64,000 nucleotides of DNA from NCBI RefSeq assembly GCF_010119975.1, contig NZ_CP048222.1:7354501-7418500 (forward strand), written 5' to 3'. Positions 35,132-39,802 of the stretch are shown here, piece by piece. The position numbers and the translations under genes are program-made. Every line of letters starts with the position of its first letter. Position 1 is the first letter of the stretch. This DNA comes from Rhodocytophaga rosea. GTDB taxonomy: Bacteria > Bacteroidota > Bacteroidia > Cytophagales > 172606-1. A model generated the notes under the pieces. The model had not been told where the DNA came from. It ran no database searches and saw nothing but the letters and a program-made list of their open reading frames with translations.

Positions 35132-36220
35132 ATGAGCGCCAAAAAGGTTACAGAAACAATTGCCAGATTCAGGAATGATATTTTAAATGGGACTCTTCCC
35201 TTTGGAAGTTTGCTTCCTTCCGAAAAGGAACTCGCTGCCGAAATGCAGGTTTCCCGGCCTACCGTAGCTAAAGTCTACAATGCTTTACAAAAAGAGGGCT
35301 TGCTGAAAAAAACACCTGGGCAAGGAACTACCGTGGTATTTAATGGGGAAAGAAAAAAATACACCTTTGGCTTATTATTGCCTGGGGCAGGAGAGTCAGA
35401 AATTTTTGGTGCCATTCATGATCATTTCCTGGCCATAGAAAAGGAAAAAGAGCCAAAATTTTTGTGGGAAGGGGCGATTGCCAACCATGCGCAGGTCAGG
35501 CAAAATTCTATCATTAAAATATGTGAAAGGTATATTGAAGAAAACGTGAGTGGTGTTTTCTTTGCGCCTTTAGAAAGAACAGAAAATGCAGCAGGGGTGA
35601 ATAAAAAGGTTTGCGAACTATTTGACAAAGAAAATATTCCGGTCATTTTAATTGACAGAGATATATACTCGTTTCCCGAACGCAGCCAGTATCCTGTAAT
35701 TGGCCTGGATAACTTCAACGCCGGGTATATAATGACCAAGCACCTAATAGAATCCGGATGTGAGAAAATATACTTTTGTTACCGCAAAGACTCCGCCAGT
35801 AGCATTTACAAACGGATTGCCGGCTGCAATAGTGCCTGTTTTGATGCCGGTATTCCTTTTAGCAGAGAACATATTATGGTAGGAGAGCCTGCTGATTTAA
35901 ACTTCGTCAGAAAGATGAAAATCGTACCCAAAAAGACTGGCGTATTATGTGCCAATGATTCAACGGCAGCTGTGATCATGTCTAGTTTTAAGCAGATTGG
36001 TATCCTTGTTTCCCGGCATGTGTTGGTAGCTGGTTACGATGATATGAAGTATGGGAAAGTATTACAACCCTCGCTTACTACTTATCAACAGCCACTGTTC
36101 GAAATTGTAACCATCAGCTACGAGATGATGCTGAACAGGCTTGTAACGCAACATTCCATAGCTGCCAACATTAGCCTGACTGGTGAACTAATAGCCCGCG
36201 AATCAACAAAATTTGCTTGA
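35132..36220 (+). CDS. GntR-type HTH / LacI-type sensor transcriptional regulator
   Basis: 362 residues. The GntR winged helix at 1-70 includes LPSEKELAAEMQVSRPTVAK and GLLKKTPGQGTTVVF. It is fused to a periplasmic-binding-protein-like sugar sensor of the LacI/GalR kind (about 75-362, with YTFGLLLPGAGESEIF, VSGVFFAPLERTEN, VLCANDSTAAVIM and LVAGYDDMKYGKVLQPSLTT). The architecture resembles Bacillus AraR. It is divergent from the SusC-to-MFS operon and is the obvious candidate for its sugar-responsive repressor, acting at the TTTACAT array. The effector, perhaps fructose or a phosphorylated sugar, is unknown. Confidence 0.93.
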   Translation: MSAKKVTETIARFRNDILNGTLPFGSLLPSEKELAAEMQVSRPTVAKVYNALQKEGLLKKTPGQGTTVVFNGERKKYTFGLLLPGAGESEIFGAIHDHFLAIEKEKEPKFLWEGAIANHAQVRQNSIIKICERYIEENVSGVFFAPLERTENAAGVNKKVCELFDKENIPVILIDRDIYSFPERSQYPVIGLDNFNAGYIMTKHLIESGCEKIYFCYRKDSASSIYKRIAGCNSACFDAGIPFSREHIMVGEPADLNFVRKMKIVPKKTGVLCANDSTAAVIMSSFKQIGILVSRHVLVAGYDDMKYGKVLQPSLTTYQQPLFEIVTISYEMMLNRLVTQHSIAANISLTGELIARESTKFA

Positions 36221-36269
36221 AATAATAGGGTTAGAGGGATATATATTCTGTGAAAATCAGGACTTTAAG

Positions 36270-36318
36270 ATCTATAATTAACGAATATACTTTCAGGGTA
36301 TCTTCGTTAATTATAGAT
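36270..36318. repeat. 49-bp near-perfect palindrome between convergent genes
   Basis: Arms ATCTATAATTAACGAA (36270-36285) and TTCGTTAATTATAGAT (36303-36318) pair over 16 bp without mismatch. After one mismatch, ATAC and GTAT add four more pairs, leaving a 7-base loop TTTCAGG. It lies 50 bp behind the regulator gene and before the end of the SRPBCC remnant. No T-run follows, so it is not a standard terminator; it could still stop transcription from both sides or be a small mobile repeat. Confidence 0.6.
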
Positions 36319-36405
36319 AAATTGTATTGCTAAACACTCTGTTGGGTACTATTTAAAGTAGTATCATTTTCTTTCCTAATAGTTAAGACCCGTGTTTTGT
36401 TTATA

Positions 36406-36772
36406 TTAACCCTTTTCTTCTAAAAGTTTTTTCAGGCCTGTCAGCATCATGGTCCAGTTCTTTTCAGATTCCTCTTTTGCTTGTTGGGTGGCATTCTTGT
36501 CTTGTGAGAGAGAAATAAGGGTTTGTGAATCCCTGTCTGTCAATTCAATAGTAACCGTGTGATAATTTTCGGGAATATCCGGCTGTCCGGTAAGGGGACT
36601 GAAATGGCTATATTGTAGCCTGGTTTGTGGGTTAATTTGAAGTAATACTCCCTTGTCTTCATATTGTTTCCCTTTCCATTCTCCTTTCCAAACGATTTGG
36701 CTACCCTTTTTCCAGTCGGAAATAACCGTAGTGCCAAGCATATATATTTTTATCTTTTCAGGGTTTATTACT
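36406..36772 (-). pseudogene. AHSA1/SRPBCC-family gene, 3' part, split by IS110 element
   Basis: C-terminal three quarters of a START/Bet v 1-fold protein (AHSA1-like). Reading leftward, the frame carries INPEKIKIYMLGTTVISDW, IVWKGEWKGKQYEDKG and LQYSHFSPLTGQPDIPENYH, ending LKKLLEEKG. The apparent ATG at 36741 is internal: coding similarity continues upstream of it to the edge of the IS110 element near 36772. The missing first 25 residues lie 1.6 kb away at 38412-38485. Intact members (about 140-160 residues) bind hydrophobic ligands or resemble Hsp90 activators; this copy is presumably non-functional. Confidence 0.85.
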
Positions 36773-36802
36773 ACTGACTAACGTCTATGTCTACAGTTAA
36801 AT

Positions 36803-38158
36803 TTAGTTCATAGCGAAGCCCACATCCTCAGGCTTCAAGTCCAATTTAGCAATCTTATTTCTGATCCTTTGTACTAGTTTCATCTTTCTTTTCTGATCCA
36901 TAAATAAGTATTGACTAGGCGGATTATAGGGTACATGTTTGACGATCATATTCCAGATAATGACTGCCAGCTTTCGAGCTGTGGCTGAGATAGCGGCTAT
37001 TCTACCTTTTCTATAGTTGATGCGGTTGAAGAAATCTGATAGATGGGTGTCTTTGAGATTGCCTATTGTGTTGGCTGCTAACCTGAGCGCAATTTTTAAA
37101 CGATTACTGCCTTTGGCAATCTTTTTACTTAATACTTTACCGCCGCTAATTTTTATATTGGGGCATAATCTGAGCCAAGAGGTGAATTGTTTGGATGTCT
37201 CAAACTTTTTGATCCCTTCACAGCCTACCTCACTCATTAGGGCAATCACTGTTGCATGACTCACTCCTTCAATGCGCATCAGGTCCACCCCATCAAAGTA
37301 CTGATAAGCAAGTTGATTCAAGTCCATATTTTTTGGCGTATTCTTGTTCACCTTTTTATGCGGCTTAGCCTCCGCCTGTAAAGCTCTTTTTGTCTCATCC
37401 CCTTCAATCTGCTCAGAAAGTAGCTTTGCTATAGCTACATCACATTGCTCCATCTTTGCCTGCAGGATTTTATACAGGTCAAATTCCTGTTGTAAGCCAA
37501 ACAGGTAATCTTTCCTCCCATTACTCTGCAGGGCTTTGGCGATTTCTTCCTCTGATTTACGGCAGTTACCATGACGAAAAGAGGCTAGTACTTGTGGATT
37601 GGTTTCTCCTTTACAGACAGCTTCAATGATCTGCAAACCTGTCAGTCCACAGACATCTTTGACCACTATATCTAAACGAAGATTGAGCAATCGTAGGTAC
37701 TTCTGCATCTTTTGTGTGGTCATCGCAGAGGTCTCCAACAGGGAAGTGCGATGCCGGCAATAAGTTCTCAATTGTTCAGTGGCTAGGTCTGGCAGAAAAC
37801 TACTACTGAGTAGCCCCAAACTATGTAGCTTCTGTATCCATTGACAATCTTGCACATCGGTTTTGCGGCCTTTGATGTTTTTGGTGAATTTACCATTGCA
37901 CAGGTATACCTCTAATCCTGCTTCTTGTAGAAAGGAAAATAAACTCTGCCAGTAATTACCAGTACTTTCCATAGCTACGGTGGTAATTTGATTTGCCTTA
38001 AGCCAAGCCAGCAATTGGCTTAGATCCTCATTGTAAACGCCAAACTCTCTCACATCTTCTCGTTGTTGGCCGATAGCTACATAATGTGACCGGCTTCCTA
38101 CATCAATACCGGCAGCATTGCGGTTAATGACTTCCATGGATACAGACTTGTTTTTCAT
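36803..38158 (-). CDS. IS110-family transposase (bridge recombinase)
   Basis: 451-residue recombinase. The N-terminal RuvC-like DEDD domain has Asp19 in GIDVG, Glu64 in AMESTGNYW, and Asp101/Asp104 in GRKTDVQDCQWI. The C-terminal transposase-20 domain has IEGVSHATVIALMSEVG followed by SWLRLCPNIKISGGKVLSKK, in which Ser338 of SGGK is the expected catalytic serine. A coiled-coil-like stretch links the two. All key residues are present, so the enzyme appears intact. In characterised IS110 relatives (IS621) the protein is guided by an RNA from the element end that pairs with donor and target DNA. Confidence 0.95.
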   Translation of the reverse strand: MKNKSVSMEVINRNAAGIDVGSRSHYVAIGQQREDVREFGVYNEDLSQLLAWLKANQITTVAMESTGNYWQSLFSFLQEAGLEVYLCNGKFTKNIKGRKTDVQDCQWIQKLHSLGLLSSSFLPDLATEQLRTYCRHRTSLLETSAMTTQKMQKYLRLLNLRLDIVVKDVCGLTGLQIIEAVCKGETNPQVLASFRHGNCRKSEEEIAKALQSNGRKDYLFGLQQEFDLYKILQAKMEQCDVAIAKLLSEQIEGDETKRALQAEAKPHKKVNKNTPKNMDLNQLAYQYFDGVDLMRIEGVSHATVIALMSEVGCEGIKKFETSKQFTSWLRLCPNIKISGGKVLSKKIAKGSNRLKIALRLAANTIGNLKDTHLSDFFNRINYRKGRIAAISATARKLAVIIWNMIVKHVPYNPPSQYLFMDQKRKMKLVQRIRNKIAKLDLKPEDVGFAMN

Positions 38159-38199
38159 GTTTCTTTACTTGATTAAGTTGAAAAAGTCCCAAGGAAATG

Positions 38200-38400
38200 T
38201 ATCTTTGATATGAAAATATACTGATCGGGGTAGCTGATAGCTCCTCCACTGAAATCATCTCAAGCCTTTCTGTTGGAGCAGAAGGGCTTTTTACATTTCT
38301 GACCAGAATGTGTCACGGGCTGTAAACACCAGAAAAAAATTGGTCTAGCTTAGGACAAAACAAAAGTACCTACGTTAGCCCAAGAAATCAATGCTTCTTC
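38200..38400 (-). ncRNA. Candidate IS110 bridge RNA region
   Basis: The noncoding DNA upstream of the transposase contains a 13-base segment (38302-38314, plus strand ACCAGAATGTGTC) identical to the sequence spanning the element/target junction (38407-38419). Eight of those bases are target DNA. This matches the expected left target guide of a bridge RNA. In the transposase sense, GCTCC and GGAGC near 38240-38280 can close a roughly 30-base loop, a possible donor-binding loop, and a TCAGT in it matches the element's 3' end. RNA limits are guesses and no right target guide could be matched. Confidence 0.4.
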
Positions 38401-38411
38401 CGGAATACCAG

Positions 38412-38485
38412 AATGTGTCCCAAACTTTATCAATAGATGCTCCTATTGATATTTGTACGGTTGCGATTAAATTTTTTTGGTTCAT
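38412..38485 (-). pseudogene. AHSA1/SRPBCC-family gene, 5' part, split by IS110 element
   Basis: Reading leftward from the ATG at 38485 gives MNQKNLIATVQISIGASIDK followed by VWDT, the standard start of an SRPBCC protein ('apIekVWdal'). The frame then enters the IS110 element and stops shortly after. Joined to the 3' half at 36772, the sequence reads KVWDT-x-INPEKIKIYMLG, an unbroken family consensus. The two pieces are therefore one gene of roughly 150 codons interrupted by the element. Confidence 0.82.
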
Positions 38486-38587
38486 ATTATACCACTGTTG
38501 ATAAATGATAGATATAAGTTGAGGAGGGATTTATTACAGTACTAACAATCTTTGGCAAAGCAAGGCTGCTGGTCAATTCTACTATCC

Positions 38588-39802
38588 TTACGGATAAAGC
38601 AGGTATTTTTTACGCATTAGTTTATATTGACTTAGGCCGGGTTCCCAGCTTTGACGGATTTCTTTTTCAGAGGCACCGGCAATAATCTGTTTCCTGAACA
38701 AAGCATTACCAGCTAATCTTTCAATTACACCCATTTCTCTACTCAGACTGGAGTCGAAGAATTTTTCCTTGTAGGGGGAGGCCTGGTATAATTCCATCAT
38801 CCATTTCAGATTAACCTGTTTGCTTTTTCTCAGTTGCTCCACATCATAGTTGCGCAGGTCCAGGCCATAACAAACCTGGTTCATAAACAGCGGCGTTTCT
38901 GCCATCCCTTTAATACTGGTAGGTGTGTAGGAAAATTCGTATTTACCTTTGAGCTCCGGACTGCCAATAACAGTAAAGGGAAAAAGGGTGCCACGGCCAT
39001 GATTCAGATAGGTGCCCTCAAATAAACAGGTGGAAGGGTAGAGCATTACTGCCTGCTGGGTATTTAGATTAGGCGAGGGGCTTACCGGCAATGTATAAGC
39101 CATATCGTGGGTATAGTTGGCTACCGGAATGATCTTTAGCTTACATTTCACTTTATTTGCCAGCCAGCCTTCTCCATTGGCCATCATAGCAAATTCCCCA
39201 ACGGTTAACCCATGTGACATTGGCAAAGGAAACATGCCAATGCCTGATTTGAACTTCATATCCAGAATAGGTCCGTCAATCAGGTATCCATTAGGATTAG
39301 GTCTGTCCAGAATGAGCAGTTCTTTATTATTTTCATAACAAGCCTCCATTAAGCGGGATAAGGCATTGATATTGGTATAAAAGCGACAGCCTACATCCTG
39401 CAGGTCATAAATCATGATATCCACATCGGCTAAATCTTCTTTGCTGGGTTTGTTTTTTTTACCATATAAGGAGATCACCCGAATACCTGTAGCCGGATCG
39501 GTTTCATCACCTACCACAACGCCGGCACTGGCATTGCCACGAAAACCATGTTCCGGGCCAAATACTTTTACAATAGTAATTCCCAATCTGGAAAGACTGT
39601 CTACCAAATGTGTTTTTCCGATCACAGTGGTTGGATTGGCAAGAATAGCTACCCTTTTGCCTTTCAGATAAGGCAGGTATTTTTCGGTTTGTTCGGCACC
39701 GGTTTTGATTGGCGCTGCCTTTGCGACAGCAGGGACAGGAAATGAATTTTTGCCTGGAACAAAAAGGCTCCATACCATAAACAAAGTAAAGAATACTTTC
39801 AT
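38588..39802 (-). CDS. NamZ/DUF1343 family exo-beta-N-acetylmuramidase-like protein
   Basis: Exported protein: signal peptide at about residues 1-28. The body is the DUF1343 family, now known as NamZ (GH171), which removes terminal N-acetylmuramic acid from peptidoglycan fragments. Conserved pieces are YLKGKRVAILANPTTVIG, KVFGPEHGFRGNASAG with the invariant Glu84-His85, IMIYDLQDVGCRFYTNINAL, LLILDRPNPNGYLIDGPILD, MSHGLTVGEFAMMANGEGW and SPNLNTQQAVMLYPSTCLFEGT. Length 404 is normal. It likely takes part in cell-wall recycling or in using peptidoglycan from other bacteria. No MurNAc kinase or importer is adjacent. Confidence 0.9.
   Translation of the reverse strand: MKVFFTLFMVWSLFVPGKNSFPVPAVAKAAPIKTGAEQTEKYLPYLKGKRVAILANPTTVIGKTHLVDSLSRLGITIVKVFGPEHGFRGNASAGVVVGDETDPATGIRVISLYGKKNKPSKEDLADVDIMIYDLQDVGCRFYTNINALSRLMEACYENNKELLILDRPNPNGYLIDGPILDMKFKSGIGMFPLPMSHGLTVGEFAMMANGEGWLANKVKCKLKIIPVANYTHDMAYTLPVSPSPNLNTQQAVMLYPSTCLFEGTYLNHGRGTLFPFTVIGSPELKGKYEFSYTPTSIKGMAETPLFMNQVCYGLDLRNYDVEQLRKSKQVNLKWMMELYQASPYKEKFFDSSLSREMGVIERLAGNALFRKQIIAGASEKEIRQSWEPGLSQYKLMRKKYLLYP

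Follow-up and report, generated by a model that had tools for sequence, protein, structure and literature searches.

An IS110-group transposon of Rhodocytophaga rosea with a probable bridge-RNA target guide, and relatives inserted beside attC-like hairpins

Why should a transposon carry, within its own noncoding DNA, a copy of the sequence at which it meets its host? The question is raised by a window of 64,000 nucleotides from the genome of Rhodocytophaga rosea (contig NZ_CP048222.1, positions 7,354,501 to 7,418,500; all coordinates below are those of the window), in which the 13 bases ACCAGAATGTGTC occur at 38302-38314 and again at 38407-38419, reading GACAC-AT-TCTGGT in the direction of the transposase. 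Among the three direct-repeat families in 36500-38700, this is the only one with identical copies. An original prediction, made from the letters of this DNA, had placed both copies correctly, and had proposed that the internal copy is the left target guide (LTG) of a bridge RNA, identical to the target strand. We consider it highly probable (roughly 93%) that the element is a bridge-RNA-guided transposon of the IS110 group and that the 13-mer represents its LTG. Judged by sequence comparison, the covariation of guide with target and of guide with donor, the fold of the RNA and the ends of the element all appear well established.

The element occupies 36773-38412 on the minus strand (1,640 bp, core dinucleotides excluded), with its left end (LE) at 38412 and its right end (RE) at 36773, as placed by comparison of five copies and of 62 related loci. 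Its gene, at 36803-38158 on the minus strand, encodes a DEDD transposase/recombinase of 451 aa with the two domains that define the IS110 family, PF01548 (RuvC-like DEDD, 84 bits) and PF02371 (Transposase_20, 46.3 bits), both over cut-off, and the protein scores 218.8 bits against the NCBIfam model NF033542, ‘IS110 family RNA-guided transposase’ (cut-off 140). Upstream of the gene lie 254 noncoding bases (38159-38412), which contain the internal 13-mer, as the prediction stated. The same upstream noncoding left end is present in 67 of 82 loci (drawn from the best 80 of 135 relatives plus five copies from this genome), namely those that yield a guide and a junction; a noncoding RNA region downstream of the transposase, as in the IS1111 group, is not the arrangement here. 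The interrupted host gene encodes an AHSA1 domain. Its 3' part lies at 36406-36770 (minus strand; PF08327 positions 24-125) and its 5' part at 38415-38485 (minus strand), and the joined frame gives MNQKNL...VWDT-INPEK. Joining the flanks restores a single reading frame with either AT (VWDTLINPEK) or AG (VWDTVINPEK) as the core. A search for an uninterrupted orthologue gave three homologues, 42-47% identical, and the site pattern was found in none of them. The host gene of the window copy is an ordinary one.

The genome (8.98 Mb, one contig) holds five copies of the element. Subgroup A consists of the window copy (L006), L007 and L008, which are nearly identical, and subgroup B of L009 and L010, at 78% in DNA. 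When the five copies are aligned with their flanks, the left end begins TCTGGT in A and TCCCCC in B, and the right end finishes with ...GTTAGTCAGT in A and ...GTTAGTCAGA in B. AT follows the left host flank in all five copies and is found on the right in four; the window copy has AG there (36771-36772, minus strand). Among 49 right ends, the right core is AT in 39, AG in six, AC in three and AA in one. The left AT is constant by construction because AT was required when picking the left junction, and L101 has a left junction reading AC. AT is present in the LTG, in the left donor guide (LDG) described below and, by rule, at the left junction, and we read the core dinucleotide as AT. The prediction had hesitated between GT and CT, both of which we reject on the five-copy alignment and the LDG. 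A variable right core beside a nearly constant left AT (partly by rule) is the outcome expected from mismatched-core exchange. The right target guide (RTG) was considered as the cause of AG or AC in the right core, and a tally made by eye gave no clear association.

Inside the ends lies a 7-base subterminal inverted repeat, ACGTTAG / CTAACGT, which in the window copy is set in by about 5 bases on the right and 34 on the left. On the minus strand, the left-end segment GGCTAACGT at 38372-38380 contains the inverted copy of the right-end ACGTTAG, as seen in the alignment of copies, and the right-end segment GACGTTAGTC at 36776-36785 has the same spacing of CGTT, seven bases and core as the targets. 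The motifs ACGTTAG and CTAACGT also served to locate the ends of relatives. Two contigs, L070 and L071, read RE-AT-LE, which may represent a circle or a tandem junction in the assembly.

How much of the 13-mer could be a guide? The internal copy (minus strand) comprises the LTG GACAC (38310-38314), the core AT (38308-38309) and TCTGGT (38302-38307), the last being the start of the 3' closing strand of the predicted target loop. The junction copy (minus strand) comprises host GACAC (38415-38419), the core AT (38413-38414) and element TCTGGT (38407-38412). If the core is AT, the rebuilt empty site agrees with eight of the bases, GACACATT on the transposase strand. Eight is also the number that the prediction assigned to the host gene; seven of them (GACAC and the core AT) are indeed outside the element, and the eighth, a T, is the base with which the element starts and also the one with which the right flank starts. 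The remaining five bases, CTGGT, belong to the element in both copies, and a TCTGG start is confined to subgroup A (three copies, all in this genome) among 67 loci. The guide can therefore comprise no more than 8 of the 13 bases, namely GACAC, AT and one T, and the prediction's full-length guide must be shortened accordingly. In 20,000 trials that simulated the noncoding DNA and flanks by a first-order Markov model, with at least four bases required on each side of the boundary, a match of 13 or more across 38412|38413 arose in a fraction of 0.00015 and one of nine or more in 0.0021. The base after the LTG core, in column 89 of the bridge-RNA alignment, equals the first left-end base in all 62 loci where 33 would be expected, with both bases restricted to T or C by the search rules, and in subgroup A six bases agree. 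This agreement of the post-core base with the left end at 38407-38412 is perhaps used in excision.

The argument for a guide depends on relatives inserted at other sites. Scanning the genome contigs of 84,980 species gave 135 relatives, of which the best 80 were kept; 82 loci were analysed, comprising 77 of these 80 (L114-L116 were left out as incomplete) and the five copies of this genome. By rule, 15 of the 82 lacked a guide or a junction, leaving 67, and the junction rule is independent of any match between guide and target. Four loci with uncertain junctions (L067, L080, L093 and L109) and L071, a duplicate of L070, were then removed, and the junction of L056 was set by hand, which gives 62 loci (five copies from this genome and 57 relatives). 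Repeating the transposase search across the phylum added no further genome. In G439, a genome of the same genus, the insertion junctions are the same as those of the Rhodocytophaga aerolata loci L042 and L043.

Across the 62 loci, comparison of guide with target at the four positions next to the core gives 172 matches in 248 cells, as opposed to 102.1 +/- 6.7 when targets are permuted (z 10.4; the maximum over 5,000 permutations was 131). This is the covariation that the prediction had proposed to look for among the insertion sites of relatives. The four uncertain loci, counted by hand, contribute 3 matches in 16 cells, and would bring the total to 175 of 264. When all pairs of bridge-RNA columns and left-target positions were scanned, the LTG diagonal supplied the three best pairs. 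A further set of 23 loci included one without a junction and 16 repeats of known sites, and the six that were left match in 20 of 24 cells, compared with 11.9 for random guides (p 0.0002). It is important to note that the guides of related loci are not independent, although their flanks are. Guide position -7 gives a weak signal (p 0.06), and there is none at -8 and beyond. With nothing at -8 and -9 and little at -7, the left guide effectively amounts to some 4-6 bases and the core, which is short for a unique site.

Within this genome, the internal guide is GACAC-AT in subgroup A and TTTGCA-AT in subgroup B. The subgroup B insertions follow this difference, with left targets ATTTGCA-AT at L009 and GGGTGCA-AT at L010, which match six and four of six guide bases. 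In subgroup A the left targets are GGGACAC-AT at the window copy, CCTAAC-AT at L007 and GATACAT-AT at L008, and the window copy alone matches all five guide bases, with two of five at L007 and three of five at L008 (plus the core). Because L007 and L008 match their targets only partly, the guide of subgroup A does not record every landing site exactly. The prediction had called the 13-mer a record of how the element chose its site, which holds for the window copy and fails in part for its two siblings. It had also named, as grounds for giving up the idea, copies with the same internal 13-mer in unrelated targets; L007 and L008 go half way towards that, since they carry the same 13-mer at targets that match it in part.

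Elsewhere in the clade, L085, L159 and, by reading, L110 carry the guide TCAGAAT and sit directly after the family right-end sequence ...GTCAGAAT, which has the same final letters. The guides of these three elements seem aimed at the right end of their own family, as if naturally redirected towards tandem insertion. In a sister clade (47-51% identical), guide equals target in 18 of 18 cells at two variable positions (permuted mean 14.0, p 0.012), a score for nine of twelve loci with strings picked by eye, leaving L022 (which matches by eye), L023 and L161 unscored. At L022, L162-L167 and L173 of the sister clade, the guide matches extend over 8-10 bases, and the targets resemble codons of other transposons' genes, which by eye we take to be of the IS256 and IS3 types.

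The predicted bridge RNA spans 38200-38354 on the minus strand (ends approximate), as judged by a conserved fold of 21 sequences in which the guides were mapped by covariation. In the RNAalifold consensus, a target loop is closed by GACC(G)/(T)GGT(T) and has an apical stem between the RTG and LTG strands; a donor stem follows, with the LDG directly after it. Two-sided changes occur in 7 of the 18 pairs of this consensus. The prediction was unable to match a right target guide, which can now be placed on the 5' strand of the same loop, at 38333-38341 (minus strand), by register-specific complementarity to the right target. Of 68 registers scanned over the aligned RNA, the best were two neighbouring ones on this strand, separated by an alignment gap (z 4.35 and 4.22; the next best reached 3.0). 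With the gap removed, a single register gives 161 of 270 matches over 45 loci compared with 126.5 +/- 5.9 (z 5.86), a value reached by none of 2,000 permutations, and neighbouring registers range from z 0.3 to 3.1.

On the donor side, the LDG (TCAGT plus the core AT, 38218-38224, minus strand) is identical to the right end of the element. Guide and right end agree in 46 of 46 loci at each of the two most informative columns (30.8 and 40.4 expected), and the LDG switches between TCAGT and TCAGA together with the right end between subgroups A and B. A right donor guide (RDG) was sought in the bridge-RNA column scan, and no column was convincing. The prediction had offered nearby GCTCC/GGAGC runs as a donor stem. 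The runs exist, but in the consensus of 21 sequences GGAGC pairs with GCTACC instead, within the stem TGG.GGAGC / GCT.CCCCG at about 38226-38248 (minus strand). Upstream of the predicted RNA, at 38361-38368 (minus strand), stands TACTTTTG, an instance of TAnnTTTG, presumably the -7 box of Bacteroidetes-type promoters. This motif is found in 14 of the 62 loci, compared with 1.7 in shuffled sequences, and the looser TAnnTT[TA] in 48 compared with 14.8. An Rfam search of 36000-39000 gave no match.

The targets contain letters that the guide does not account for. In 53 of 62 targets, as in the element's own right end, CGTT precedes the core at a distance of exactly seven bases; the window target has no CGTT, yet all five guide bases beside its core match. 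A reading of CGTT by the guide was rejected, with matches at -12, -11 and -10 in 1, 13 and 0 of the 62 loci, none above permutation. Because the guide does not match CGTT, we infer that the protein reads it.

Many targets also have left flanks that are imperfect palindromes. By an anchored hairpin score, 23 of 51 targets exceed all 114 control CGTT[AG] sites of the window, with ten more targets left unscored because they lack GTT at the anchoring position. This score and the covariance model below supersede a hairpin test with the arm boundary at -52, in which 25 of 61 targets lay above the 95th percentile of scrambled partners. For 19 flanks with boxes about 121 bases apart, chosen by a hairpin spacing that itself favours pairing, 85.6% of cells are paired and all 16 stem pairs covary; 101 cells are changed on both sides (36.9 in shuffles), as opposed to five on one side. 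Covariation that is so strictly Watson-Crick is what DNA folding as a single strand, like attC, should show. The covariance model R1, built from these 19 flanks, finds 98 sites (E up to 0.5; 19 are the training sites) in 656 kb, with 95 on the transposon strand (+); neither the window nor the 137 kb of this genome that were part of the search contain any. An R1 match at E <= 0.5 adjoins 31 of 62 relatives' targets, including the 19 that built the model; of the 12 others, eight have E < 0.001, and one of this group, L071, is a near-duplicate. A further 64 matches on the + strand adjoin no target. Insertion beside an attC-type hairpin is seen in the clade and not in the window copy. Among the copies of this genome, the anchored score finds an attC-like hairpin at L010 only, with L006 and L009 beyond scoring.

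We propose that the noncoding left end would be transcribed with the same polarity as the transposase gene, and that the RNA would form two loops, one for the target and one for the donor. In the target loop, the LTG on the 3' strand (GACAC with the core AT) would pair with the bottom strand to the left of the core, and the RTG on the 5' strand with the top strand to the right of it. The donor loop would pair at least with the right end of the element (LDG, TCAGT plus AT). A circle, excised from the donor, would then be joined to the target by the DEDD recombinase at the shared AT. The protein may contribute the reading of CGTT, and in the clade insertion would be steered to the 3' edge of attC-like hairpins.

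What are these hairpins? Matches to R1 at E <= 1e-4 occur in 27 of 28 relatives' genomes, from at least one to at least 100 in each and more than 20 in at least 11, all of which are lower bounds because at most 118 or 150 first-look candidates were scored per genome. Arrays were read in the loci that were fetched. The clearest, L148 (from the genome of L062, Daejeonella oryzae), has 18 sites in 14.4 kb, all on the + strand, with exactly one + strand open reading frame of at least 70 aa in 15 of 17 intervals, none in one and two in another. Similar head-to-tail series of attC-like hairpins of about 121 nt, with about one open reading frame each, are seen in the Bacteroidota loci L141, L142, L143-L146 and L149. 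L142-L146 and L149 were picked for the proximity of a recombinase match to an R1 match; in each, a tyrosine recombinase that is extended at its N terminus is encoded 0.6-1.1 kb from the nearest site. In four of these six proteins the extension contains, by eye, a motif resembling RW...W.[IVL]P. Scored as whole proteins, the six reach 188-211 with the integron-integrase (IntI) model TIGR02249 (cut-off 265) and 200-218 with NF040815 (cut-off 220).

From comparison of these sequences, many relatives appear to sit at the folding end-sites of gene-cassette arrays. We lean, by a little over even odds in our own judgement, towards a joint reading in which an integron-type cassette system, widespread in Bacteroidota, escapes the standard IntI model, and a bridge-RNA lineage of reversed guide order has specialised on its sites. 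Such a system would consist of attC-like hairpins of about 121 nt, one-gene cassettes and a Xer-like recombinase that has an N-terminal extension and lacks the IntI-specific region. The transposon protein would read the conserved CGTT and its RNA the few bases that vary among cassettes, so that guide and cassette edges would evolve together.

An alternative is that the palindromes at the targets are not attC sites of the integron type but terminators, REP-like repeats or hairpins of some other kind. Across 41 relatives' genomes, no match to TIGR02249 exceeded its cut-off when pieces were scored apart; ATG, as a cassette start, is not enriched to the right of the insertion point (23 of 43 compared with 19.6 in shuffles); half of the relatives' targets have no R1 match; and a first box test, of R' against R'' complementarity alone, gave no signal (mean 5.43 compared with 5.32 in controls). 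We nevertheless regard this alternative as rather unlikely, in view of the integron-cassette features of these sites: AAC...GTT boxes, a spacing of 119-126 nt, the near absence of one-sided changes (5 cells against 101), a shared orientation (95 of 98) and the single open reading frame per site in L148.

It is also conceivable that the protein alone picks the site, reading CGTT-N7-AT beside folded attC-like DNA, and that the identity of the guide mirrors a lineage-specific protein preference. The fixed spacing of CGTT in 53 of 62 targets, unmatched by any guide, speaks for a contribution of this kind, as does the attC-like hairpin adjoining 31 of 62. We judge a protein-only choice very improbable, given that the letters between CGTT and the core, and those on the right side, follow the RNA column by column, that re-lettered guides are found at re-lettered targets (L085, L110 and L159), and that the window site, which has no CGTT, has all five guide bases. 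Scarcely credible is the idea that the 13-mer is a chance direct repeat, or was left behind when something inserted or was duplicated at the left end at an earlier time. In favour of it, CTGGT belongs to the element in both copies and is unshared at the subgroup B junction, so that the full 13-base length overstates the signal, and L007 and L008 match their own targets poorly; but simulated boundary-spanning repeats are very rare (0.00015 and 0.0021, as above) and one duplication cannot give covariation over 62 loci.

The window copy can be compared with IS621 (Durrant et al. 2024, PMC11208160). Both have a DEDD plus Transposase_20 recombinase (a profile match to 8wt6 has E 1.7e-5), an RNA (predicted here) encoded in a long left end, LTG and RTG around an apparently shared core, and a donor loop with an LDG. 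In IS621, the 5' side of the target loop is the LTG and pairs with the bottom strand (PMC11208160), whereas here the RTG is 5' and the LTG 3', so that the IS110-group order (LTG 5', RTG 3') does not hold. Further differences from IS621 are a core of AT rather than CT, a recombinase of 451 aa rather than 328 (the 8wt6 chain), a 7-base subterminal inverted repeat, a CGTT common to donor and targets, and an RDG not found by the column scan (PMC11208160).

IS1111 elements have a guide order that is the reverse of that in IS621 and ISEc21, and attC-targeting members are known (PMC11187229). The clade resembles the IS1111-type seekRNA elements ISKpn4 and ISPst6 in having the top-strand-pairing guide 5' of the bottom-strand-pairing one, in having attC targets and perhaps in its subterminal inverted repeat (Siddiquee et al. 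2024, PMC11187229). Subterminal inverted repeats of 7-17 bp characterise the IS1111 group; the one in the window copy has 7 bases, and in the relatives its motifs were those by which the ends were located. The clade differs from ISKpn4 and ISPst6 in that the RNA region is upstream instead of downstream, and in that its hosts are mainly Bacteroidota; unlike the IS1111 type, the transposase belongs to the 395-455 aa size class of the subgroup around IS110 (PMC11187229). ISEc21, of the IS110 type, shares the upstream RNA, and the sister clade here also seems, from its flanks, to enter codons of other transposons' transposase genes; ISEc21 is ordered as IS621 is, in contrast to the reversed order here (PMC11187229). 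Because of the protein and the position of the RNA, we file the clade in the IS110 family as a guide-order variant. In the open-licence literature that was consulted we found no description of this clade, and an open-licence search for IS110 together with attC in Bacteroidetes likewise found no paper.

The arrays, for their part, share with integrons and CALINs the head-to-tail one-ORF cassettes, hairpins of R''-L''-L'-R'-like layout and conservation of structure rather than sequence, going by the available parts of the reports (PMC9024848, PMC8618304, PMC9668308). The difference lies in the recombinases near the arrays. These match TIGR02249 in two pieces only, with positions of about 180-240 missing, are extended at the N terminus and do not reach the cut-offs. 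For Bacteroidetes, the accessible part of the IntegronFinder 2.0 report gives integrases without attC as the earlier state and one complete integron, in Salinibacter (PMC9024848). Bacteroidota are listed among integron phyla without detail in the corresponding portions of two reviews (PMC8618304, PMC9668308), and the taxon-specific set of attC models, in the part available, names no Bacteroidota (PMC8352920).

Bridge-RNA recombinases form a new class of programmable DNA-insertion enzymes. In this clade the core is AT, the guide order is reversed, and guides have been re-lettered in nature while their targets are known; three of its elements aim at the right end of their own family. The clade also makes the question of which letters are read by RNA and which by protein testable on existing genomes. 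The element itself is of a known kind with an unusual guide order. The more surprising part is the clade's targets, which point to Bacteroidota cassette arrays that the standard integron-integrase model leaves unscored.

Such sites also exist in the genome of the window. At least two R1 sites lie 3.7 kb apart in L147 (6080-6215 and 9895-10031), flanking an IS91-like element that consists of a 312-aa tyrosine recombinase and a 390-aa transposase. In another locus of this genome, L131, a relative of 356 aa, which is outside the six array-adjacent recombinases, scores 225 with NF040815, ‘site-specific tyrosine recombinase/integron integrase’, and exceeds its cut-off. Because the IS91-like gene pair also occurs twice in L131, this element, too, may prefer attC-like sites.
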